NCBI GenBank assembly: GCA_011033025.1
Contig: WFMF01000037.1
Coordinates: forward strand, 434,001-498,000
DNA from: Beroe forskalii
Lineage: Eukaryota; Ctenophora; Nuda; Beroida; Beroidae
Reading direction: 5' to 3'
Length of the DNA stretch: 64,000 bases
Notes under the pieces: model-generated
Database searches by the model: none
What the model saw: the letters and a program-made list of their open reading frames with translations, nothing else
What the model was told of the DNA's origin: nothing
Translations under genes and position numbers: made by a program
Shown: positions 32,201 through 59,475 of the stretch, in pieces
How the letters are laid out: the number at the start of each line of letters is the position of its first letter
How positions within the stretch are numbered: position 1 is the first letter of the stretch

Positions 32201-35200
32201 ACACCGTACACATAAATAGGTGAGCAACGGGACAAAAAATGGGACATAGCGGGACATTGCCATTTGTCTCTTGCAGACTTCACTGCAACATGAGACTCAT
32301 TTTAAAACCTTACAACTATTTGATATAGTCAGATACATCACTACATGGGCATTCTATACGTATATCAAACAAAATGGAAGAGATAAGGTCGACTAAACAA
32401 GGGAGATTAAGCAGGAGAGAATGGGTCCAAAAATTGCTATTTTTCTTATGAAATGCGATTGTTCTTGACTTTTCGAGCCGGAAATTGCTGTCTGATACAG
32501 ATTAAAAAACTTTTGAGATGACTAGTGTCCAGTTATACAGTATGCCAGACCAGGTATCCTTGATTCTTCGAACCCCAGGCCTGATATACTGATGTAGGCA
32601 TTAGAAATAAGAGATACGTCCTGGTTTTACGTTCTGATTATATGTTTTCAGGATACCTGGTCTGGCATTTATGATCACAATGTTTCAAATAGATGTGGCA
32701 ATGTTTTTAGTCCGACCTACTGTGGCACGGCACTTTCAGCAGTCAATGCCATGTTAACAAGACAGTGTTATTGTCGTGGTGTCAGAAAAGCACGCAATTA
32801 GCCTGATAAAGTCAATAACTCAGTCGTACTACGAGTCCCTAATTATACAAATACGCCAGACTGCGTGTCTCTTACATCAGGACGTGACACTTCATGTACT
32901 ATCTGAGTAATTTCAAACCATCACTATCTCTCTATGTAGACTACGTGTATCTACTATCTACGTATCTGAAACCAGTACATCAGACTACGTGTCAGAGATA
33001 TTATTTGACACCAGTAGGTAAGTGTTGACGTCTTTTGGCGTATTACGGCACGGTGCCTGACACCAGTACGTCATACAGAGTGTCCTTACTGCCTACTATC
33101 TTTAAACATCAGTCACATAATGTGTCTATGACACCACAACAGCTCTGACACCAGTATAATAGTACCAACAATTCTGACACCAGCATTAGTAAAACATCAT
33201 AGTCTCTTAAACCAGTACGTCATACAAGGTGTCTCTGTCACCACTACGGAACCCTCTAACACTAGTAAAACGCCTTATGAAGAGTCCCTGACAACAGTAC
33301 TGCAGACAACTCTCAAACATCAGTGAGACTACCCGGGGTGTCTGACACGAGCAGGTGAGACTACGTGTCTCTGTCACAAGCAGGTGAGACTACGTGTCTC
33401 TGTCACCAGTAGGTGAGACTACGTGTCTCTGACACCAGCAGGTGAGACGTATCTCTGTCACCAGCAGGTGAGACTACGTGTCTCTGACACCAGCAGGTGA
33501 GACTACGTGTCTCTGACACCAGCAGGTGAGACTACGTGTCTCTGTCACCAGCAGGTGAGACTACGTGTCTCGACACCAGCAGGTGACACCAGCAGGTGAG
33601 ACTACGTGTCTCTGTCACCAGCAGGTGAGACTACGTGTCTCTCAAGTCACCAGCAGGTGAGACGTGTCTCTGTCACCAGCAGGTGAGACGTGTCTCTGTC
33701 ACCAGCAGGTGAGACTACGTGTCTCTGACACCAGCAGGTGAGACTACGTGTCTCTGTCACCAGCAGGTGAGACTACGTGTCTCTGACACCAGCAGGTGAG
33801 ACTACGTGTCTCTGTCACCAGCAGGTGAGACTACGTGTCTCTGACACCAGTGGGTGAGACTAGACGTGTCTCTGACACCAGTAGGTGAGACGAGACGTGT
33901 CTCAGACACCAGCAGGCGAGACTACGTGTACCAGGTGGTGAGACTGCATGTATCTGACAGCCTGACACCAGTAGGTAAGACTTCGTGTCTTTGACACCAG
34001 TATACAGTCAGTATGTGAGACTAGGTGTCTCTGACACGAGTAGGTGATAATATGACGTGTCTCTGACACCAGTAGGGGGGACTACGTGTCTCTGACACCA
34101 GGTGGTGAGACTGCGTGTATCTGACACCAGGTGGTGAGACTGCGTGTATGTCAGTATGTGAGACTAGGTGTCTCTGACACGAGTAGGTGATATTATGACG
34201 TCTCTCTGACACCAGTAATGGGACTACGTGTTCCTGACACCAGTAGGTGACACAACGTGGCTCTGACACCAGTATGTGAGACTGTGTGTCTACTGTCTCT
34301 GAAACCACTGGTGAGACACTAGTGTCCCTGACATCATTGGAGTGTAAGAACTGGAGGTAAGACTACGTGTTTATGACACCAGTAGGTGAGACTACGTGTC
34401 TCTGACACCAGTAGGTGAGACTACGTAGGTCGTGTCTGACACCAGTAGGTGATACTACGTGTTTCTGACACCAGCAGGTGATACTACGTGTCTCTGACAC
34501 CAGTAGGCGAGACTACGTGTCTCTGACACCAGTAGGCGAGACTACGTGTCTCTGACACCAGTAGGCGAGACTACGTGTCTCTGACACCAGGTGGTGAGAC
34601 TGCGTGTATCTGACAGCCTGACACCAGTAGGTAAGACTACGTGTCTCTGACACCAGTATGTGAGTATGTGAGACTTGGCTGACACGAGTAGGTGATATGT
34701 CGTGTCTCTGACACCAGTAGGGGGGACTGCGTGTTGCTGATACCAGTACGTAAGTCGTAAGTCTACCTCAGTTCATCACTTGTTTTGTCCGGTTTGTGCA
34801 GCTTCTACCACTTTTCTTCACTTTTTTGAGTCAAAGTTGTCTCCATTGTCCTTGTCTGTTTTCATTTTCTGAGTCTCATTTGTCTCTGTCACATTTGTCC
34901 AAACTTTCCTTGTCCGTTCTCACTCGTTTGAGTCCAATTGCCTTTGTCCCAATTGTCCCTCTCATCCCAATTGTCCATGTCCCAATTCCATTTTTGAGCC
35001 CTATTAGTTATCCACCGGTTATGTCATCTTTTATAGCCTGAGGCACTACTTGGCAAGGTCACATGGCCGGCGTATTTTTAATGCGCGAAGTGTATTCTCT
35101 GACCCAACTTTTCATGCCCAAATTCACTTTTTGAGTCCCTTCTGCCGCTATCCCAATTTCCCTGATCCGTTTTCACTTTTTGACTCCCATTTGTCGCTGT

Positions 35201-38200
35201 CCATTTTATCTCAATCTTTCTTGTTCATTGTCATTCTCGCCTCACAAATTTGAGTCCACACTCCTACTCTTCACTCCTCTTCAGACCATGCACAAGCTCT
35301 AACCAGTGGCATGCCCAAAGGTTAAGAGGGTCTCATCACTCTTTTATTTCTTACCATAGGGATCAAGGTAGTTAATCTTCGAAGGGGCGCCCCCGACAAT
35401 TTGTTACTCCTAGAGTATCACCACCTGGTAACAGGTAAGAGGTTGCTAGCAAGGCTAGTAGTGCAACCAGGTGGGTCCCAGTAGAACTCTCTGCAATTGA
35501 GAGTTGCCACCCACCCCGGAAGGGGATGTGGTGGTACGTTGGATATTCTGATATTGCACCAAACAAACAAATTGTCGTTCTCTTGCGTACCATTTGTCAA
35601 TGTCCCATTTGTCCCAAGTGTCCTAAAGGTATTTCCTTAAATTTTCAAAATCAAATGCATTCAAGACCATTGGGCCATTGGGGTGAGCGTTTAACTTTGC
35701 AGCATATATTTGTGAGCTATGAGGGCAAGAAAAGTAGTCCATGAGACTGAGATCTAAGGTCAGATTTCCCACCATGAGGTCGAAAATATGCCTGGGATGA
35801 AGTTTCACCCCTTATTCAATGAATTCAATGCCCGGTGAGCCAACAAATAAACTTTTTCCTTAAATATTGGAAATTTCATATCAGAAATGTCCCGGTTTGT
35901 CCCGCAATGTCCCGCTTTGTCCCGGTTTGTCCCGCTCCAAAAAATGTCCCGCTCCAAGATTTGGGTGAGCAATGCATCTCTAGATTTCTATACACATTAC
36001 ACATGTATACACTCAACACAGTTCACATTATACACAAGTCATAGCTTCATCCTGGGTCCAATCCCCCCTCAATTTTGCAACTCCCCCCTTGCCAAAACCT
36101 CCCCCCCCCCCCTGAATCTTCAAAATCCTCAATTCCACCCCCTTTGGGCACCCAACCCTGAATTTTAAAAATTCGACCAACCCCCACCAAAAAATTAAAA
36201 AAATTTCTAAAATATGTCCGGTTGAATTGTTTACGAAAGAATGAACCGAAACTAGACACTTAATGACAAAATGAAATTATGTTAACTATAAAATGTGGCT
36301 GAAACAGCAAGTCAGAAAAAAATCAGTCAATTTTGAGTTTTAACATATAATATTTCTTATGACTGAAATGGTAATGAAGTTCAATTTTAATGTCAATTAA
36401 TCCTTGAATATATAAAGCTATAAAGTGACACTTGTCAGAGAATCATGGCATGAAACCAAGTCCCAGGGATATTGTCAACACGATATAAAAACGTAAAAAC
36501 ACATCTTTAAAGTTTATGTAACTTGGAAATGGCAGGAAATTGAAGTATCGCAGTGATTTGGCAGTTTTACAAAAAGAAACCGGGGGTCTGGGCAGCCCCC
36601 CGAAGCCAGAGGGTCTGAGCAAAAATATTTCTCGCAGGAATAGGATTTTCATCTCAAATTTTGATATTCTTCTGTCAGATCCCAATCCCCCCCTTAATTT
36701 TTTTCACTCCCCCTTCCGTCCGAGTCCCCCCAGAATCATTGAAATTAGGGCGACCCCCCGCCTACCTTATCTGACCCAAAATCTTCATCCCCCCTTCTCT
36801 TGGCGGGGGGGGATGAAGCTATGCAATAACAAAAGCTCAAATACTAGACAAGCCTATCAGGGCGCTGGCAAGCGCAATTCACTCACCTCTTGTGCATCTG
36901 CCTTCGGCCCAAAGGGCCGAGGGCATCTGAATTGGTAAGCAGTCCCAGCCCGAAGAACACGGGGCCCTCGTTTGAGCCCAAGATTGTGTGGGAGCCTAAA
37001 TTAGTACGGGGAGCCCAAATTAGAATGGGGAGCCAATGTTAGTGTGGGAAAGTCCAAGCTATTGTGAAGCCCAGAATAAGGTAGAGTCAGGTACGGTGAA
37101 GCCCTGGGTAAGGGTGAGCAACGTATAGATGATCCCATGTTTCAGGGTGAGCCAGAGCTATGGCGATAAAAATGAATTTTGGACTGCTCGATTCTTCTCT
37201 AGAGGGGCGATTGAAAAGTCAAGCTTTTAGGAGTAAGATTGAATTTAAAGGAGCTCAAATTAAGAAATCAAAACTTTTTAATTTCATTATTGTTCAAATT
37301 ACGTGACGGAGGGAGTATTTTTCAATTTGACTCCTTAATGCTGAAGGTTAAGTCAAAATAGATGGATCAATTACAACAAAAGGTAATCAATAGCACTAAA
37401 ACAAATTGAATAGATTCTCTAAATACCCTCTAAATTCCACTTATCAATCCATGATTCCATAAAAGGCACAGGATTGAGCATTTGAGGCTCACAATACTGC
37501 TGCTGAATTGGGTTGCGTTGATTAGCAGCATTTAAGATTGTAATTAAGTTTATAATTTCAGAGTTCTACTTACATTTTATTATACCTAATTTTTTACTAG
37601 TCTCAAACAACCTTTAACCGCACGCACTGTAATTGATCACCCCAAGATAAATAGCTGCTTAGATTGCTACAGCAATAATGCAGATATAATGCCTTAGAGA
37701 GCATGGTCAGGGAAAGGACCAGACCACCCAAGTACTCAAATACCATGAAGACACTTGCCTGACTGGATTACACTTTCGTCCTTCGGGCTGATGGTCTTAA
37801 CCCAACACATCCCTAGGGAAGTATCCCAAAATGGATATCCTTTGATATGGCCAATTGTGTAAAACAGGCGTATCCCTAAAAGAATAACAGTGCAAAAAGC
37901 TTAAAATGAAACTTGATTTTATGAAGGAGCACTCAAAAAATGCGATTATCCGGACGAAACCATGGGAAGAAATACTGTTGTTTGGCCGTAGAATAGTCAG
38001 TCCCAGCTGTTTCCGGTCAGTAACTGTTCCATGAGTAATAATGAACTCGGCACGCCTCGTCCATTATCCAACTTACAGTCTCGGCTGTCGCCTCGACCAT
38101 GTAAGTTGCGGTATACGGTCACCACTTCGACATGTAACCGCTTATTATAAAAAACCATACTAACATACCTGAGTAATCGTGGTTCTTTGCAGTTATGGTT

Positions 38201-41200
38201 TTCATGGTTGTTATGATTTCTGCTGTGTCCATTATATGTGTCATGGCAGATAATATGCTTCTTGATATAAATGGCCTCCTTCATGGAACACAAATCCCCA
38301 TGGAAGTGGCTAAATGCTCGCAAATATTGAACCACATCAGTGACATTGCGTATTTCAAAGAGGCCCTAATAAACCAACTTTTCTCCATAAATGATCCAAA
38401 TAATTCACTTTGTGAGTTCAATGTTGATATGTTGAATTTAAAGACATCGACAACCTTATCACCGAAGATTTCCAAGATAATAAGTGATTCAAAGTGGTTT
38501 TGTGATGAATTGAATGTACAAAATTTTAAAAGTTGTAACGGACACTCAATGTGCTTGACAGATGAATGTGGGTGTCAGTCAACAGAGAATTGGAAACTTG
38601 GGACACAGTTCCTCTGTCCTGATAAGTCAGGGTGCATTGCTTTAGGAAACACGTGTGATGGGGTACATGACTGTAAGGACGGGAGTGATGAATGCATCTG
38701 TGAAGGATTCATCCAGTTGAAATGTCCGGAGCTCACAAAACCTTATTGTGTATCTTTAGATAATCTTTGTCGACTGCTTGAGAAGAAAAGCCCATCGACC
38801 TATGAGCACCGAGAATGGCTTAACTTCCTGAGGAAATGTTTGAGCTTGAAAGAAATCAATAAGACGTGTAGAAGACTAAAGAAAACCTATAGCTTGAAAG
38901 ATGAGTTCAACCCCATTTTCCAATGTCTTGAAAATGAAAGTTACTACCCCACGTCCTCATCAAGGGACATTAAAGCATTCTGCAAAAACAACTGCTCTAC
39001 ATATTACAGGAATGAGTCTTGGGATCGGTTTTGCAATAGACTTTACTGGGGTGGAATTGGATTACACGCCCTTAATTTTCTTTGTCCTGGTTATGGTTAT
39101 ATCGAGTTGCGGCGGCTGTGTGATGGAACTGTTGATTGTCCTGAAGGGGCCGATGAGGCAGGCTGTCCTGGAAGGTTTTACTGCTCAGGCAATAGCTCTG
39201 TCGAGTGGGTGGAGTCTGAAAAACTGTGTGATCACGTCAAGGATTGCTCCAATGGGGCAGATGAATGCTATGGTTGCAATATGGGGGCTTTCACGTCGAG
39301 TGATTTTCTGATTAGCTCGAATATCGTGTTCGCCTTGACGTTATTACATGGTGCAGCAGCAGTTATCATCAATGCTAGGCAGGGATACAGGTGCTACTCA
39401 AACACACCTTCCAGTCATACTGGAGAACTTGACAGAATTGTATTATTCCAAATCATATCATACGACTTTGTCATGGGGCTGTATGAAATACTTATCATAG
39501 TTTCATCGGTAATCTTCTGGGTAAGAGGAAAGTATTGTAACTTTGATGCAGAATGGAGATCAAGTATTTATTGTGCTATTTTGGGAATCTTATTCACTTT
39601 TTCCACTCACGGATCCTTGCTTTCCATAGCACAAATCAGTGTTACAAGATGCATCACTTGCCTATCAAACAACACTATCTACATCAAAAAATCAGTAGTC
39701 ATGATGCTGTCTTTAATTTGCTTCGTCATCAACCTCGGAAATTCAGTAATCCCAATCATCCCTTTGCCTTACATTCAAAACATATTCAGAACCGATATTC
39801 TATTTACTTCTCTAGGACAAAACCCGTTCGTGAATCAGAATCCTCTAAACTACACCCTCCTCAAAGATATGCATAACAGAATCTTTGATACAGAAGCAAC
39901 GGACTTGTATGAAATCCTGGGAGATCTCAGGGGTACTGTTTCAAACAAGACCATGTGGCAGACAACGGAGATAAGTTTCTACGGAAACACAGGGTTGTGT
40001 GTTCACAACATGTTCAAAAGCCAGGAATCTTTTAAGGAATACCAGCGATCATACTTGAGTCTCATTTCCATCACTCTCCTTGTAATGACTGGTTCTTACA
40101 TTGCTATAGTAGCCAAGATTGATAGATCTCAACGGGAAGTAGAAAACATAGCACAGCAACATCAGGGAAAAGAAAGAAATATTCAACCTCACATTTCAGT
40201 AACAACCAAAGTTATGCTAATGATATTCTCCCAGTTACTGTGTTGGCTAGCGTTCATTGGTGCAACATGTTACTACACAATTCGTGAAGATATTGCAGTT
40301 CCCGGTATGATATATGAGATTTTCGCCTTGATCATCATGCCCCTGAATAGTCTACTCAATCCTATATTTTATAGCGAATCATACAAGTTACTGATTGAGG
40401 AACTCGTGAAATGCACGAAATGGTACCGTAGTCGAAATGACACTGTGGAAGAAATCGAAATGTCACGTTTCAATTTACCAGGAGCAAATAGTCCATGAAA
40501 AATGATCAATGCATGGAAAATTTAAGTTTTAAAGCTTTATTAAACTTTCTTAAAAATTGCAATAACTTAAAATTTAACTTATTAATTCTTGAAATAGCAG
40601 TTTCAATATGAGTTTTATTTTTAGCCTGAATTCTTTCAATTTATGTTTCCTGAATTGTGCTTTTATCATGCCGCGTGACATATGAGAGTATAAGTCTCCC
40701 GCATGGCTTGGCCTCTTCTAGTCATATGTAATTTCGCGTCAAAGATTGAAAGAAATATATTAAAGCAGGCAACAGTCAGAAGTCTAATACGGTATAATTA
40801 AATAACTCTTAATTTTTGGAAGTTTTGAATAATATACATAATATAGAACTAGAGATCGAAGGGGCAACCTTATACCACATATTATATATGGAAGCTTTTT
40901 ATCAGTATGGTTTTGGTTAAGAGTACATATAGAATGGTTTCACCTTCTATATGTACGGACTCCGGGATGTAGGTTCCTTGGGCTTGGAGGCGAAAAATCG
41001 TGTGTTACACATTTTGTGCTGCACAATCACCCTCGCCCAACTGATGACCCATTTTAGCCCTTGAGCACTTTTTGTCACTTTCGGGCCTTAAATTATTATC
41101 AAAATTCTTATATTCCTTCTAAACATGATTAACTGCAACGATACGTCATGGATGCATATGGTTTGACCTTACATAATAAAGTTGTCTATGATTGCATGTA

Positions 41201-51197: not shown

Positions 51198-53161
51198 ACG
51201 ACAAAAATTAGCCTCCATTAGCCTCCATTAGCCTCCATGGAGGCTGAGTGGAGGCTGAGTGGAGCCTGAGTGGAGGCTAAGTGGAGGCTAATTTCAAAAA
51301 TTAGCCTCCACGGAGGCTAGTGGAGGCATGAGGCTAATTTTCGAAAAATAGCCTCCACTGTGGAGGCTATATTAGCCTCCACTAGCCTCCACTAGGCTCC
51401 ACTAGCCTCCACTCAGCCTCCACTCAGCCTCCCTCCATGGAGGCTAAATTTTTAGTTTAGCCTCCACTAGCCTCCACTAGCCTCTACTCAAGATTTAGCC
51501 TCCATTAGCCTCCACGGAAATTTAAAAAGTCATTTTTTGGATTCTATGGAAGAGATTTTGACAGTGCTAGTGGAGGCTATAGCCTCCAAATGGAGGCTAA
51601 AATCATGAAAAAACACAGATAATATGCTAGCCTCCACAAAATTGAATTTATGTCATGTTTTTACAAAAAGAGTACATTTTGTAACATAGACCAAAGTCTA
51701 GTATTAGGCACCACTAGGCCTCCACTAGAATCCACTCAGCCTCCACTAGGCTCCACTAGGCTTCACTCAGCCTCCACTAGGCTCCACTCAGCCTCCACTC
51801 AGCCTCCACTAGGCTCCATTCAGCCTCCACTAGCCTCCACGCAGCCTCCACTCAGCCTCCATTAGCCTCCACTTAGCCTCACTAGGCTCCACTCAGCCTC
51901 CACTAGGCTCCGCAGCCTCCACTAGGCTCCAGTGGAGCCTCCACTGGAGCCTAGTGGAGGCTGAGTGGGCTAGTGGAGGCTGAGGGAGCCTGGTGGAGGC
52001 TGGATGGAGGCCTGGTGGAGGCTGAGTGGAGCCTGAGTGGAGGCTGAGTGGAGGCCAGTGGAGGCTGGTGGAGGTGAATGGGCCTAGTGGAGGCCATGGA
52101 GCCTAGTGGAGGCTGAATGGAGCCTAGTGGAGGCTAGTGGAGCCTATTGGATCCTAGTGGAGGCTAGTGGAGCCTAGTGGTGGCCAGTGGAGCCTAGTGG
52201 AGGCTGAGTGGAGCCTAGTGGAGGCTAGTGGGGCCTGAGTGGAGCCTAGTGGAGGCTGAGTGGAGCCTAGTGGGGGCTAAGTGGAGGCTAGTGGGCTGAG
52301 TGGAGCCTAGTGGAGGCTGAGTGGAGCCTAGTGGAGGCTGAATGGATCCTAGTGGAGGCTAGTGGAGCCTATTGGATCCTAGTGAGGCTAGTGGAGCCTA
52401 GTGGTGGCCAGTGGAGCCTAGTGGAGGCTGAGTGGAGCCTAGTGGAGGCTAGTGGGGCTGAGTGGAGCCTAGTGGAGGCTGAGTGGAGCCTAGTGGAGGC
52501 TAAGTGGAGGCTGAGTGGAGCCTAGTGGAGGCTGAGTGGAGCCTAGTGGAGGCTGAGTGGAGCCTAGTGGAGGCTGAGTGGAGCCCTAGTGGAGGCTGAG
52601 TGAAGCCTAGTGGAGGCTGAGTGTAGGACAGTTGGAGCTGTCTGAAAGTTTGAAGCTATATATTGTTTTTCACATTAGTACACATAAATCACCATTTTCA
52701 GCAAGAAATTTGTGTTTTGTAGGCTTATTGATTTAGGCTCCACTCAGCCTCCACTTAGCCTCCACTCAGCCTCCACTAGCCTCCATTAGCCTCCAAATGG
52801 AGGCTTTAGCCTCCACAAAAATGACTTTTTAAATTTCTGTGGAGGCTAATGGAGGCTAATTCTTGAGTGGAGGCTAGTGGAGGCTAGTGGAGGCTAAACC
52901 AAAAATTTAGCCTCCATGGAGGCTGAGTGGAGGCTGAGTGGAGGCTGAGTGGAGGCTAGTGGAGGCTAATGGAGGCTAGTGGAGGCTAATATAGCCTCCA
53001 TAGTGGAGGCTATTTTTCAAAAATTAGCCTCATGCCTCCACTAGCCTCCGTGGAGGCTAATTTTGAAATTAGCCTCCACTTAGGCTCCACTCAGGGCTCC
53101 ACTCAGCCTCCTCAGCCTCCATGGAGGCTAATGGAGGCTAATGGAGGCTAATTTTTGTCGT
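51198..53161. mobile_element. Large foldback element made of AGCCTCCACT-type units (about 1.96 kb)
   Basis: It starts ACGACAAAAATTAGCCTCC and ends GGAGGCTAATTTTTGTCGT. The outer 430 bases on each side are inverted copies of each other, including single-copy landmarks: AATTTC(A)AAAATTAGCCTC, TGGAGGCATGAGGCTAATTT, and a Ser-poor AT spacer near TTCTATGGAAG present only on the left. The interior holds long runs of the same roughly 10-bp unit, first as GCCTCCACTA then, past about 51,930, as AGTGGAGCCTAGTGGAGGCT. There is no open frame apart from repeat by-products. It ends 47 bases from a coding exon. Confidence 0.8.
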
Positions 53162-53837: not shown

Positions 53838-54126
53838 CTGTTTAATAGTATAGAGCCTATTTGCTATTTCTCTAATAGTAATACCTTATACAACTACACA
53901 AAATGAATATAGTGCTCGGCTGAAGACGACTAGCATGTCCGTGCCGTGCCCTTCGTAACACGTACGACGCAAAATTTTTAATGTGCATTTATAATTTACG
54001 CAGGTTAGGAATGAATGGTCATTGATAGAAGCATGAAATGAGAGAGAAAGAAAAGGGGCTCTTTTTATCGTCATAAATTTGTGTGCTTTCAATGTGATCG
54101 ATTTGGTATGTGCACGTAACATTTTT

Positions 54127-54350
54127 CGTCATGCTCGATCTGGTGCTTAAAGTGGTTTCAACGTCATAGAATTGGTATGTGGAATGTGCAAACGTCGCTA
54201 TTCGTCACGTTTGATATGGTGTAGAGTGCTGTCAACGTCATACAGTTGGTATGCGCGCGTAACGCTATTCGTCATGCTTGATTGGGTACAGAGTGGTGTC
54301 AACGTCATTGCGTTGGTATGTGGAATGTGCATACGTCGTCGTTCGTCATT
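54127..54350 (+). promoter_or_regulatory. Array of CGTCA (CRE half-site) motifs upstream of a TATA box, unit 1
   Basis: CGTCA starts at 54,127, 54,162, 54,203, 54,236, 54,270, 54,303 and 54,344 (spacings 33-41). TTCGTCA(C/T)G alternates with TCAACGTCAT. They belong to a roughly 70-75-bp tandem repeat that also has TTGGTATG and GGAATGTGCA words. CGTCA is the ATF/CREB half-site in general; use here is inference. Confidence 0.5.
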
Positions 54351-54373
54351 GATGATGGAGTGGTGTCAGCCAC

Positions 54374-54382
54374 TATATATAA
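54374..54382 (+). promoter_or_regulatory. TATA-box-like core promoter, unit 1
   Basis: TATATATAA followed by GG stands directly downstream of the CGTCA array. About 30 bases on, CGCCATTAG could serve as an initiator. The satellite array begins about 80 bases downstream. No protein frame follows. Confidence 0.45.
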
Positions 54383-54463
54383 GGACGTGTGCTGCCCCTC
54401 TCGCCATTAGTTGTATTTGTTTTCTTGGTGTTCAACTTGCTTTGCTTAACGTGTTGTTTATTA

Positions 54464-55998
54464 AGTACCGTTGTTGTTAAGGTACCGTTGTTGTTAAGGT
54501 ACCGTTGTTGTTAAGGTACCGTTGTTGTTAAGGTACCGTTGTTGTTAAGGTACCGTTGTTGTTAAGGTACCGTTGTTGTAACGGTACCCAGTTAGGTACC
54601 GTTGTTGTTAAGGTACCCAGTAAAGTACCGTTGTTAAAACCGTACCGTTGTTAAGGTGCCGTTGTTGTTAAGGTACCGTTGTTATTAAGGTACCGTTGTT
54701 GTTAAGGTACCCAGTAAAGTACCGTTGTTAAAACCGTACCGTTGTTAAGGTGCCGTTGTTGTTAAGGTACCGTTGTTATTAAGGTACCGTTGTTGTTAAG
54801 GTACCGTTGTTGTTAAGGTACCCAGTAAGGTACCGTTGTTGTTAAGGTACCCAGTAAGGTACCGTTGTTGTTAAGGGTACCCAGTTAAGTACCGTTGTTA
54901 TTAAGGTACCGTTGTTGTTAAGGTACCGTTGTTGTTAAGGTTCCGTTGTTGTTAAGGTACCGTTGTTGTTAAGGTACTGTTGTTGTTAGGGTACCCAGTT
55001 AAGTACCGTTGTTATTCAGGTACAGTTGTTGTTAAGGTACCGTTGTTGTAACGGTACCCAGTTAGGTACCGTTGTTGTTAAGGTACCCAGTAAAGTACCG
55101 TTGTTAAAACCGTACCGTTGTTAAGGTACCGTTGTTGTTAAGGTACCGTTGTTATTAAGGTACCGTTGTTGTTAAGGTACCGTTGTTGTTAAGGTACCCA
55201 GTTAGGTACCGTTGTTGTTAAGGTACCTTTGTTGTTAAGGTACCCAGTTAAGTACCGGTGTTAAAACGGTACCGTTGTTAAGGTACCGTTGTTGTTAAGG
55301 TACCGTTGTTGTTAAGGTACCGTTGTTGTAATGTTGTAACTGAACCCAGTTAAGTACCGTTGTTAAAACCGTACCGTTGTTAAGGTGCCGTTGTTGTTAA
55401 GGTACCGTTGTTATTAAGCTCCGTTGTTGTTAAGGTACCGTTGTTGTTAAGGTACCGTTGTTGTTAAGGTACCGTTGTTGTTAAGGTACCGTTGTTGTTA
55501 AGGTACCGTTGTTGTTAAGGTACCGTTGTTGTAACGGTACCCAGTTAGGGACCGTTGTTGTTAAGGTACCCAGTTAAGTACCGGTGTTAAAACGGTACCG
55601 TTGTTAAGGTACCGTTGTTGTTAAGGTACCGTTGTTGTTAAGGTACCGTTGTTGTAATGTTGTAACGGAACCCAGTTAGGTACCGTTGTTGTTAAGGTAC
55701 CCAGTAAGGTACCGTTGTTGTTAAGGTACCCAGTAAGGTACCGTTGTTGTTAAGGTACCTTTGTTGTTAGGGTACCCAGTTAAGTACCGTTGTTATTCAG
55801 GTACAGTTGTTGTTAAGGTACCGTTAATGTTGAGGTACCGTTGTTGTTAAGGTACCGTTGTTGTTAAGGTACCCAGTTAGGTACCTTTGTTGTTAAGGTA
55901 TCCAGTTAAGTACCGTTGTTTATAAGGTTCCGTTGTTAATAAGGTACCGTTGTTTATAAGGTTCAGTAATAAATAAGGTACCGTTGTCAATAAGGTGC
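54464..55998 (+). repeat. 17-bp satellite GGTACCGTTGTTGTTAA, array 1
   Basis: The 17-bp unit is repeated for 1.5 kb, with interspersed variants GGTACCCAGTTA, AAACCGTACCGTTGTTAAGG and GTTGTAACGGTACCCAG that recur in the same order, so a higher-order pattern exists. It contains a KpnI site in nearly every unit. Frequent TAA stops exclude a long protein. Confidence 0.93.
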
Positions 55999-56957
55999 TA
56001 TAATAGTTTTATCGTCGATTATCGTTTGTGCAATTTTAAAATCCAGAGATTTTCCACTGTGCGTCACACGTACGTCCATCCGTACATAATATAGATTAGA
56101 AACTCGGCGAAGATTTTCAATTGTCTGCAGACATACATGAAGTCTGGAGAAACACATTGTCGCGAAACTGATTTTCATGGCAGGATGCCGCGGAATTGCG
56201 GAAAGACTTTAGTTCGAATCCCCAACACGGGAATTTTGTCGGACCAAGAACATAAAAACCATTGCTTATTGACGCACAACAATTTATGCAAACTATACAA
56301 ATTATGAACAAATTTCATCAATCAAAGCAAATACGTAAAATGCCCATTCAACACGGTTTTCAAGGTCTCCTGACAAGTGATATTTGTACCCCGTCAAATT
56401 ATGTCCCAAACATTTGAAAGTTGAGTGTTTAACTTGAAGTTGAACATCTGTCGAATGTTCTGGAACTGGCAACTAAAACTCACATTTTCAGTTATTCACA
56501 AATGTCAGGAGACCTAAATAAGCGAAATAATGAATAGTAGGCAGCAAATCATAATATCATTTCTAATTTCTAAACATGATCACTCAGTTATCACTTGTAG
56601 CGAAAGTATCTACATGCTGTTATTCCGCTTTCATATCAATGATGAATGATCTAACATTACAATAGCACAAATGCAGTGAAACAACCTGAATACATTTTAA
56701 ACCTACCTAAAGAATTACTTTTATAGCAAGCACGTATAAGCAACGTTCTGTTCCTTCTTGAGCTTCAAGTGCAAAATTGGAATTCAAAAGCATCGTCACG
56801 TTTGATATGGTGTAGAGTGGTGTCAACGTCATACAGTTGGTATGCGCACGTAACGCTATTCGTCATGCTTGATTGGGTAGGTGTCAACGTCATTGCGTTG
56901 GTATGTGAATGTGCATACGTCGTCGTTCGTCATTGATGATGGAGTGGTGTCAGCCAC

Positions 56958-56966
56958 TATATATAA
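56958..56966 (+). promoter_or_regulatory. TATA-box-like core promoter, unit 2
   Basis: Same TATATATAAGG and downstream CGCCATTAG as in unit 1, with the array starting about 80 bases on. Conservation of this stretch between units matches that of the neighbouring non-satellite DNA. Confidence 0.45.
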
Positions 56967-57046
56967 GGACGTGTGCTGCCCCTCTCGCCATTAGTTGTAT
57001 TTGTTTTCTTGGTGTTCAACTTGCTTTGCTTAACGTGTTGTTTATA

Positions 57047-58620
57047 AAGTACCGTTGTTGTTAAGGTACCGTTGTTGTTAAGGTACCGTTGTTGTTAAGG
57101 TACCGTTGTTGTTAAGGTACCGTTGTTGTAACGGTACCCAGTTAGGTACCGTTGTTGTTAAGGTACCGTTGTTATTAAGGTACCGTTGTTGTTAAGGTAC
57201 CGTTGTTGTTAAGGTACCCAGTAAGGTACCGTTGTTGTTAAGGTACCGTTGTTGTTAGGGTACCCAGTTAAGTACCGTTGTTATTCAGGTACAGTTGTTG
57301 TTAAGGTACCGTTATTGTTGAGGTACCGTTGTTGTAACGGTACCCAGTTAGGTACCGTTGTTGTTAAGGTACCCAGTAAAGTACCGTTGTTAAAACCGTA
57401 CCGTTGTTAAGGTGCCGTTGTTGTTAAGGTACCGTTGTTATTAAGGTACCGTTGTTGTTAAGGTACCGTTGTTGTTAAGGTTGTTGTTAAAGGTACCTTT
57501 TGTTGTTAGTGCCCAGTTAAAGTACCGTTGTTATTAAGGTACCGTTGTTAGTACCGTTGTTGTTAAGGTACCGTTGTTGTTAGGGTACCCAGTTAAGTAC
57601 CGTTGTTATTCAGGTACAGTTGTTGTTAAGGTACCGTTGTTGTAACGGTACCCAGTTAGGTACCGTTGTTAAGGTACCCAGTAAAGTACCGTTGTTAAAA
57701 CCGTACCGTTGTTAAGGTGCCGTTGTTGTTAAGGTACCGTTGTTATTAAGGTACCGTTGTTGTTAAGGTACCGTTGTTGTTAAGGTACCCAGTAAGGTAC
57801 CGTTCTTGTTAAGGTACCTTTGTTGTTAAGGTACCCAGTTAAGTACCGGTGTTAAAACGGTACCGTTGTTAAGGTACCGTTGTTGTTAAGGTACCGTTGT
57901 TGTTAAGGTACCGTTGTTATTAAGGTACCGTTGTTGTTAAGGTGCCGTTGTTGTTAAGGTACCGTTGTTGTTAAGGTACCGTTGTTGTTAAGGTACCGTT
58001 GTTGTTAAGGTACCGTTGTTGTTAAGGTACCGTTGTTGTTAAGGTACCGTTGTTGTAACGGTACCCAGTTAGGGACCGTTGTTGTTAAGGTACCCAGTTA
58101 AGTACCGGTGTTAAAACGGTACCGTTGTTAAGGTACCGTTGTTGTTAAGGTACCGTTGTTGTTAAGGTACCGTTGTTGTAATGTTGTAACGGAACCCAGT
58201 TAGGTACCGTTGTTGTTAAGGTACCGTTGTTGTTAAGGTACCGTTGTTGTTAAGGTACCGTTGTTGTAATGTTGTAACGGAACCCAGTTAGGTACCGTTG
58301 TTGTTAAGGTACCCAGTAAGGTACCGTTGTTGTTAAGGTACCCAGTAAGGTACCGTTGTTGTTAAGGTACCTTTGTTGTTAGGGTACCCAGTTAAGTACC
58401 GTTGTTATTCAGGTACAGTTGTTGTTAAGGTACCGTTAATGTTGAGGTACCGTTGTTGTTAAGGTACCGCTAATGTTGAGGTACCGTTGTTGTTAAGGTA
58501 CCCAGTTAGGTACCTTTGTTGTTAAGGTATCCAGTTAAGTACCGTTGTTTATAAGGTTCCGTTGTTAATAAGGTACCGTTGTTTATAAGGTTCAGTAATA
58601 AATAAGGTACCGTTGTCAAA
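57047..58620 (+). repeat. 17-bp satellite GGTACCGTTGTTGTTAA, array 2
   Basis: Same unit and same variant words as array 1, about 1.57 kb, different numbers of each variant. Long uniform runs (for example around 57,960-58,060) suggest recent local amplification. Confidence 0.93.
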
Positions 58621-59475
58621 AAGGTGCGATAATAGTTTTATCGTCGATTATCGTTTGTGCAATTTTAAAATCCAGAGATTTTCCACTGTGCGTCACACGT
58701 ACGTCCATCCGTACATAATATAGATTAGAAACTCGGCGAAGATTTTCAATTGTCTGCGGACATACATGAAGTCTGGAGAAACACATTGTCGCGAAACTGA
58801 TTTTCATGGCAGGATGCCGCGGAATTGCGGAAAGACTTTAGTTCGAATCCCCAACACGGGAATTTTGTCGGACCAAGAACATAAAAACCATTGCTTATTG
58901 ACGCACAACAATTTATGCAAACTATACAAATTATGAACAAATTTCATCAATCAAAGCAAATACGTAAAATGCCCATTCAACACGGTTTTCAAGGTCTCCT
59001 GACAAGTGATATTTGTACCCCGTCAAATTATGTCCCAAACATTTGAAAGTTGAGTGTTTAACTTGAAGTTGAACATCTGTCGAATGTTCTGGAACTGGCA
59101 ACTAAAAACTCACATTTTTCAGTTATTCACAAATGTCAGGAGACCTAAATAAGCGAAATAATGAATAGTAGGCAGCAAATCATAATATCATTTCTAATTT
59201 CTAAACATGATCACTCAGTTATCACTTGTAGCGAAAGTATCTACATGCTGTTATTCCGCTTTCATATCAATGATGAATGATCTAACATTACAATAGCACA
59301 AATGCAGTGAAACAACCTGAATACATTTTAAACCTACCTAAAGAATTACTTTTATAGCAAGCACGTATAAGCAACGTTCTGTTCCTTCTTGAGCTTCAAG
59401 TGCAAAATTGGAATTCAAAAGCATGGTTTTTGCTTTTTGTAAATTGTAGTACCTACTTACAAGAAGCCTGGCATA

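Follow-up and report, generated by a model that had tools for sequence, protein, structure and literature searches.

Does a satellite in a ctenophore genome come with a promoter of its own, and if so, what kind of unit do the two form? The question is raised by a stretch of 64,000 nucleotides of Beroe forskalii DNA (contig WFMF01000037.1, positions 434,001 to 498,000; hereafter the window, in which coordinates are counted). A first-pass annotation described here a tandemly duplicated 2.6-kb unit of CGTCA-rich repeats, a TATA box and a GGTACC satellite, and took it for the transcription unit of a repeat RNA. We compared the window units with the genome, a 216-Mb assembly of 1134 contigs with animal-type genes, in which L numbers denote the loci read, C numbers the contigs and W1 the window unit. 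The comparison points, with a probability of roughly 0.55, to a dispersed, non-autonomous, mobile-element-like family with its own promoter of RNA polymerase II (Pol II) type and a variable minisatellite. What had been described as a satellite with its own promoter is better put as a minisatellite within a dispersed, mobile-element-like unit, and the transcription-unit interpretation is partly supported by the features of the sequence.

The duplicated order of CGTCA repeats, TATA box and satellite is real. The block is repeated head-to-tail, unit 1 occupying 54203-56792 (2590 bp) and unit 2 56793-59423 (2631 bp). Alignment of the two units gave 251 matches, 3 substitutions (254 aligned bases) and 8 gap columns in the promoter and leader, 1351 matches, 43 substitutions (1394 aligned bases) and 321 gap columns in the array, and 795 matches, 2 substitutions (797 aligned bases) and 2 gap columns in the tail. 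The junction is that of an ordinary tandem duplication with at most about 1 base of shared sequence at the joint, and the near identity of the tails suggests that the local duplication is recent. The longest genome matches of unit 1 begin earlier than 54203, at about 53961-53972, and matches elsewhere end at 56061-56072, a single one reaching about 56085; the remainder of the 0.8-kb tail was not common to any of the 20 loci compared. Because the other matches stop near 56061-56072, the 2.6-kb period represents a family unit plus a private flank, duplicated in tandem. The true family unit is about 2.1 kb long (about 53961-56072), so the figure of 2.6 kb holds as a local period and fails as the size of the family unit, most of the tail being flank.

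The family unit consists of a CGTCA ladder, the TATA box TATATATAAGG, the motif CCATTAG, a leader of about 59 nt, 1.5 kb of 17-bp GGTACCGTTGTT repeats and a short 3' module, all on the forward strand in the window. The distal and proximal promoter of unit 1, made of repeats of about 67 bp with the CGTCA ladder, was delimited at 53961-54373 by genome-wide matches, copy alignment and CGTCA counts. It is followed by the TATA box (54374-54384), which was compared with 28 aligned copies, by the initiator-like CCATTAG (54404-54410), whose predicted start A at 54406 lies 30 nt from the T at 54376 in the copy alignment, and by a predicted leader of 59 nt (54406-54464; sequence and spacing analysis). 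The array holds about 96 copies of the 17-bp GGTACC minisatellite (54465-55996; Tandem Repeats Finder (TRF) row 54461-55987 and monomer profile), and genome matches place the 3' module common to other genomic copies at 55997-56072, ending near ATTTTCCACTGTG. The first tail (56073-56792) is local flank and not family sequence, as judged from the ends of genome matches and the 20-locus comparison. Unit 2 has no distal promoter; junction contexts and repeat families leave it a proximal promoter only (56793-56957), the distal CGTCA repeats being absent. Its TATA box lies at 56958-56968, its predicted leader at 56990-57048 with the initiator-like start A at 56990 (sequence, alignment), its array of about 99 copies at 57049-58616 (TRF row 57037-58616), its 3' module at 58617-58703 (genome matches) and the second tail, the duplicated flank, at 58704-59423. 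Starts previously predicted at 54,405 and 56,990 agree to within 1 nt with the A of CCATTAG. Rfam, at its gathering threshold, had no match in the window.

Searches of the same genome revealed that the unit is widely dispersed. A 131-bp query taken from the TATA block gave 40 scored matches among 187 candidates, with identities of 85-100%. A 26-base core pattern was found at 51 places genome-wide (control, 0), a wider core-promoter pattern at 212 places, 101 forward and 111 reverse (reversed-pattern control, 0), and an exact satellite 27-mer at 354 places (control, 0). The earlier statement that at least two copies exist is correct and understates a family with some two hundred dispersed places. 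Twenty copies were read in stretches of 7-10 kb, six in stretches of 3 kb and others through further searches. Every copy with sufficient sequence, 33 in number (the two window units, L009-L028, L029-L034, L037, L042-L044 and the C46 copy), has the GGTACC array downstream of the promoter in the same orientation, which strongly supports the view that promoter-like block and satellite belong to a single unit. Two duplicate pairs are among the 33, namely the window units and L017 with L023, and for the C46 copy the core place and the array were taken from separate searches.

The satellite also leads back to the promoter. The first 100 of the 354 satellite 27-mer places make up 16 arrays, and a core promoter closely precedes 15 of them in the same orientation; in the sixteenth, on C487 (L033), the core is split, the TATA box being interrupted by another element of about 1.5 kb. 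Satellite copies elsewhere without the CGTCA/TATA block would have counted against the first-pass annotation; the outcome is largely in its favour, 15 arrays having an intact core, with the split core and the damaged locus L040 (leader and array without promoter) as the exceptions. A second damaged locus, L056, has the leader without promoter, and in L019 the first monomers give way to about 0.75 kb of other sequence. Local groups occur among the matches listed, with three cores within 3.3 kb on C773 and pairs on C339 and C600; C952 has three leaders within 1.4 kb. A classical centromeric or heterochromatic satellite was rejected on the ground that the arrays, about 0.2-4.4 kb long, stand behind a promoter block and are spread over many contigs. 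A viral or bacterial origin was likewise set aside, the promoter and array patterns having no exact match in viral_contigs and the array pattern none in genome_contigs.

Two of these loci deserve separate mention. The insertion in L033 (about 110-1590 in unit orientation, some 1.5 kb) has inverted ends (CTAGGGTGGTTCAAAAATCC...). On C381 (L016), leaders at 706202(+) and 707440(-) face each other and a reversed promoter match is present, and transcripts of these two units would therefore converge.

The geometry of the core promoter is nearly constant. The TATA box contains TATATAAGG in 23 of 28 aligned copies and close variants of it in the other five, and the T of TATATAAG and the A of C(A/G)TTA stand 30 nt apart in every one of the 28. 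When the second window unit, L023, the second L034 unit, L054, L042, L055 and L057 are added, 32 of 35 copies have 30 nt, L042 and L055 have 31 and L057 has 36; the added spacings were obtained by alignment (second window unit, L023), pattern listing (second L034 unit, L054, L057) or hand count (L042, L055). A TATA box about 30 nt upstream of an initiator is the arrangement of a Pol II-type promoter. The distance from the A to the first GTAC took 15 different values between 22 and 129 nt in the 28 copies, a measure that single-base changes can shift by creating or abolishing a GTAC. Length changes among the aligned copies were absent between TATA box and initiator, and were found in 9 of 28 copies in the distal 99 bp and in 1 of 28 in the proximal 49 bp. 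The corresponding count for the leader, 27 of 28, is inflated because the reference copy carries a 7-nt deletion, and the first-GTAC distance was relied on instead. Mean pairwise identity was 0.831 in the distal promoter, 0.910 in the proximal block, 0.881 from TATA box to initiator and 0.795 in the leader. Near-constant spacing beside freely varying sequence is the pattern that selection on transcription initiation would leave, although part of this constancy reflects the way in which the copies were found; the geometry would fit units that are transcribed.

Upstream of the core, copies have 5.1 CGTCA sites on average, compared with 0.58 in shuffled sequence (28 copies, up to 327 bp); most point in one direction (reverse, 0.39 per copy), and the sites recur at -30, -71, -104, -138, -171 and -212. 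CGTCA is the type of half-site bound by basic leucine zipper (bZIP) proteins of the ATF/CREB class, and the ladder fits binding by a protein of this kind. Copies L042 and L055 represent a variant that has a 31-nt TATA-to-initiator distance and is without the block just upstream of the TATA box.

The array varies in sequence as well as in length. Within the 17-bp monomer (963 monomers), GGTACCGTTGTT is nearly constant and the last five positions are variable, and individual loci have versions of their own (GGTACAGTTGTTGACGT in L027, for example). A short module with ...TTTTGTGCAATTTTAAAATCCAGAGATTTTCCAC(T/C)GTG forms the end of one class of copies, and some copies place a second minisatellite before the 3' module. 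This second minisatellite (GATCTAGTGAGCTACGATCTACTGATCCAC) was seen after the GGTACC array in L010, L011, L015, L017, L019 and L023. A 301-nt piece of the array folds better than shuffles (z -5.6) and the leader does not (z 0.33); we rejected folding of the array RNA as a signal, since any array with a palindromic core would fold better than its shuffles. A coding function was also rejected, common monomers putting stops into all frames; the L027 variant has a 288-amino acid open frame of pure repeat on the minus strand. Retrocopies beginning at the predicted start A, which would be proof of transcription, were not found among the five leader places read, three of which have the promoter (two with altered spacing) and two of which, L040 and L056, are cut within the leader and not at the A.

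The ends of the unit and its coding content bear on how it could have spread. Copies share a common 5' edge, and the 3' end is common to one class. Compared with hAT-type ends, the 3' end in reverse reads CACNGTGG, and NGTGGA is present at the 5' edge of a few copies; duplication candidates of 8-9 bp, a hAT-like length, were present in W1 and L020 only, at ends that are not exactly fixed. Neither a transposase nor any other enzyme frame was detected in the copies examined, and no frame of at least 150 amino acids lies at 53961-59423. The longest copy examined, that of C46 (6.7 kb), comprises the array and another inserted element, with no coding frame beyond repeats, and long frames near other copies were judged by eye to be gene-like or translations of repeats. 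Since no enzyme frame was found within the unit, its spread, if any, would have to rely on enzymes encoded outside it. Two candidates for an autonomous partner were discarded, the C46 copy for its want of a coding frame and the Helitron and hAT domains of the genome for lying elsewhere than the unit places listed. The element inserted in the GGTACC array of the C46 copy (L053) measures 3.1 kb, has the ends GGAAACGACCGGTT...AACCGGTCGTTTCC and is rich in CGGTTTCGGTT and CTGACCCC repeats.

These features can be combined in one proposed mechanism. A ladder of CGTCA half-sites, bound by a bZIP protein, would sit over a core of TATA box and initiator. The RNA would most likely start at the A of CATTAG (54406 and 56990 in the window), read through a leader of about 59 nt and run into the array. 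The 17-bp GGTACC minisatellite would grow and shrink by slippage, and the unit as a whole would have spread by mobilisation in trans, through the enzymes of another element. Within the window, one unit together with 0.7 kb of flank would later have been duplicated in tandem. A further step, which we regard as unlikely and put forward tentatively, is that the some two hundred units form one network in which a shared CGTCA-binding factor switches on repeat RNAs at once.

A number of observations weigh against a mobile family with a selected promoter. Several copies have differing 5' and 3' surroundings, and a defined terminal inverted repeat was not found. Candidates for target-site duplications are inconsistent (9 bp in the window unit, 8-9 bp in L020, 14 bp in L019, 304 bp in L012), and 6 of 10 copies, one of them with almost no upstream sequence, have no duplication at the unit edge. 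Short matches of this kind may be due to chance because ACGTACG is abundant in the flanks of W1 and L020, and the duplications at L012 and in the window could be ordinary tandem duplications. None of 20 Helitron-type and 23 hAT-type places coincided with the unit places listed in a comparison by eye. As to the promoter, the TATA-to-initiator stretch (0.881) is less conserved by substitutions than the proximal block (0.910), and its constant spacing is partly a matter of ascertainment because most copies were found through the core itself: five of the 28 aligned copies (L029-L032, L034) came from the ungapped 26-base pattern and nineteen (L009-L028 without L023) are best matches of the TATA-block query. 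The seven copies found by way of the 3' module or leader have spacings of 30 nt (L037, L043, L044, L054), 31 nt (L042, L055) and 36 nt (L057). Finally, 9 of 22 copies (W1, L010, L011, L012, L015, L017, L021, L023 and L026) have a sense-strand frame of 84-172 amino acids, counted from stop to stop, that extends over both promoter and leader. As the remaining 13 do not keep it open over such a length, it is possibly a by-product of stop-poor repeats.

Flanks of 19 long and 10 short loci were inspected for genes on both strands, and exons were picked by eye in 17 loci with the help of a coding-potential model whose training set was a small number of frames taken from the window and the loci, and whose only use was to choose exons for comparison with Pfam and PDB. 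A gene was identified in 13 of these 17, in sense to the unit in nine and antisense in four; the exons chosen in L017, L019 and L032 had no hit, and that in L014 was below the curated cut-off. At L012 the exons on either side of the unit belong to a Rab GDI gene read in the same direction as the unit (Pfam GDI 92-145 upstream, 239-297 downstream); the unit lies deep in the intron, with hundreds of bases between it and the exons, and is flanked by a direct repeat of 304 bp with 94% identity. That of L013 lies, in sense, between exons of a GGPP synthase gene. Sense neighbours of further units are NifU_N, TRAP beta, glutaredoxin, Xpo1, a BMP/activin-type receptor, USP14 and, with weak support, endonuclease IV. 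Antisense neighbours are CFAP61, a mitochondrial carrier and, at distances of about 2.7 and 1.6 kb respectively, an ion channel and an MFS transporter. The first loci had suggested a strand rule in genes, which nine sense and four antisense cases did not uphold (two-sided binomial p about 0.27). Long receptor-like frames were also seen near L010, L015 and L018, antisense and at least 2.7 kb away.

Other explanations must be considered in the light of this evidence. The units could be a family of host non-coding RNA genes, kept for a function of the repeat RNA, for example in stress nuclear bodies of the hsr-omega or satellite III type, and spread by segmental duplication. The near-constant promoter geometry with its CGTCA ladder, the constant GGTACCGTTGTT part of the monomer and the local tandem groups on C773, C339, C600 and C952 would all agree with this proposal, which we nevertheless consider unlikely: copies are scattered, some in introns of unrelated genes, most have little common flank beyond the unit, and the truncated or insertion-broken copies L033, L053 and L056 are what would be expected without host constraint. 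An almost equally unlikely account makes the unit an ordinary dispersed minisatellite, with flanks conserved through recent whole-block copying and an inert likeness to a promoter. The recent duplication in the window, where the tail has 2 differences in 797 bases, would agree with this account, as would the partly ascertained spacing and the departure of three of the later copies from 30 nt. However, copies differ on average by 17% (distal promoter) and 20% (leader) and vary in the length of the leader, and despite this divergence 34 of 35 have a TATA-initiator spacing of 30 or 31 nt.

More improbable still is that the units act as mobile intronic promoters, the sense units serving as alternative starts and an AAG|GTACC donor in each repeat splicing the leader to the next exon. 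The sense units between exons of the GDI and GGPP synthase genes and the sense exons that adjoin seven further units would be explained in this manner. The four units with antisense genes nearby would not, the ratio of 9 to 4 is not significant (p about 0.27) and depends on exons picked by eye, and AAG|GTACCG matches the general donor consensus only in part. The dispersed, mobile-element-like family with its own promoter is the reading that we prefer.

Among known systems, the closest architecture is that of HINEs, non-autonomous Helentrons in which satellite arrays of constant orientation lie between two modules (PMC7492417, PMC4067079); Cg_HINE of the Pacific oyster is an example (PMC7492417). 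The unit resembles HINEs, as outlined in these sources, in its dispersed short satellite arrays, set in constant orientation with a left module on one side and a right module of about 60 bp on the other, in the candidate palindrome that some copies have near the 3' end and in the lack of coding capacity (PMC7492417, PMC4067079). It differs from the descriptions available there in having a promoter of TATA box and initiator with a CGTCA ladder (PMC7492417, PMC4067079), in that a left microsatellite was not noticed and in the flanking direct repeats of some copies. Measured against HINE features, the central array has a constant orientation in 33 of 33 copies. Perfect 3' palindrome stems of 9-11 bp occur in L012, L019 and L043, 42-57 bases from the end, and stems of only 5-6 bp in W1, L015 and L020. 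HINE insertion between T and T without duplication compares with candidates of 8-14 bp in three copies, 304 bp in L012 and none in six, at ends that are not fixed. Subterminal inverted repeats (about 11-15 bp) were found in none of six copies, a search in which a repeat beyond the 180-bp left window at the presumed 5' edge would be missed; the longest inverted match between left and right was 8-11 nt with one mismatch and did not exceed the shuffled maximum in any of the six. Because these defining repeats were not found in any of the six copies, we do not class the unit as a HINE.

SVA retrotransposons are composite, non-autonomous elements with a central variable number tandem repeat that lie near and within genes. 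The unit shares all of these properties, and differs in its 5' TATA promoter; SINE- or Alu-like parts and a poly(A) tail were not noticed, no systematic search for them having been made. The hsr-omega and satellite III systems, at one or few loci, have known transcripts and an inducible promoter. The unit resembles them in that its tandem repeats would likewise be transcribed by Pol II from an inducible promoter, whereas it occupies some two hundred dispersed places and its RNA is a prediction. TCAST of Tribolium (PMC3411249) likewise has satellite-like repeats dispersed near genes with proposed regulatory parts; the separate promoter block ahead of the array in all 33 copies with sufficient sequence sets the unit apart. 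Introners (PMC9860276) are a repeat family in introns, as some units are, but the unit is not itself the intron: in L012 it lies deep within one, and elsewhere units are antisense to a neighbour. No title or opening of an abstract that we found describes this unit, which does not exclude the existence of such a paper.

The surroundings of the units in the window contain other repeats and a gene-like frame. A 10/21-bp GGAGGCT minisatellite occupies 51207-53152 and switches strand near 51945; its inverted arms, 51297-51432 and 52929-53064, are 97% complementary and form a large fold-back just upstream of the units. A 29-bp minisatellite extends over 1.4 kb at 33341-34748, and its unit contains CAGGTGAG, a good match to the 5' splice donor consensus. 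At 38177-40498, a single frame of 773 amino acids resembles, by eye, an intronless receptor of LDLa/relaxin type, and is similar to frames near L010, L015 and L018.

Transcription of satellites is often ascribed to read-through or to cryptic starts. Here a minisatellite is coupled to a core promoter of nearly constant geometry in all 33 copies with sufficient sequence, in units in which leader length, array and surroundings vary, and the origin of a satellite RNA becomes directly testable, with one predicted base per copy. The some two hundred places constitute a natural series on how mobile promoters affect host genes at their landing sites. Were the units indeed to respond as one network, this network would be a built-in inducible system of repeat RNAs, with several of its units in introns, spread by a mobile element that carries a complete promoter of its own.

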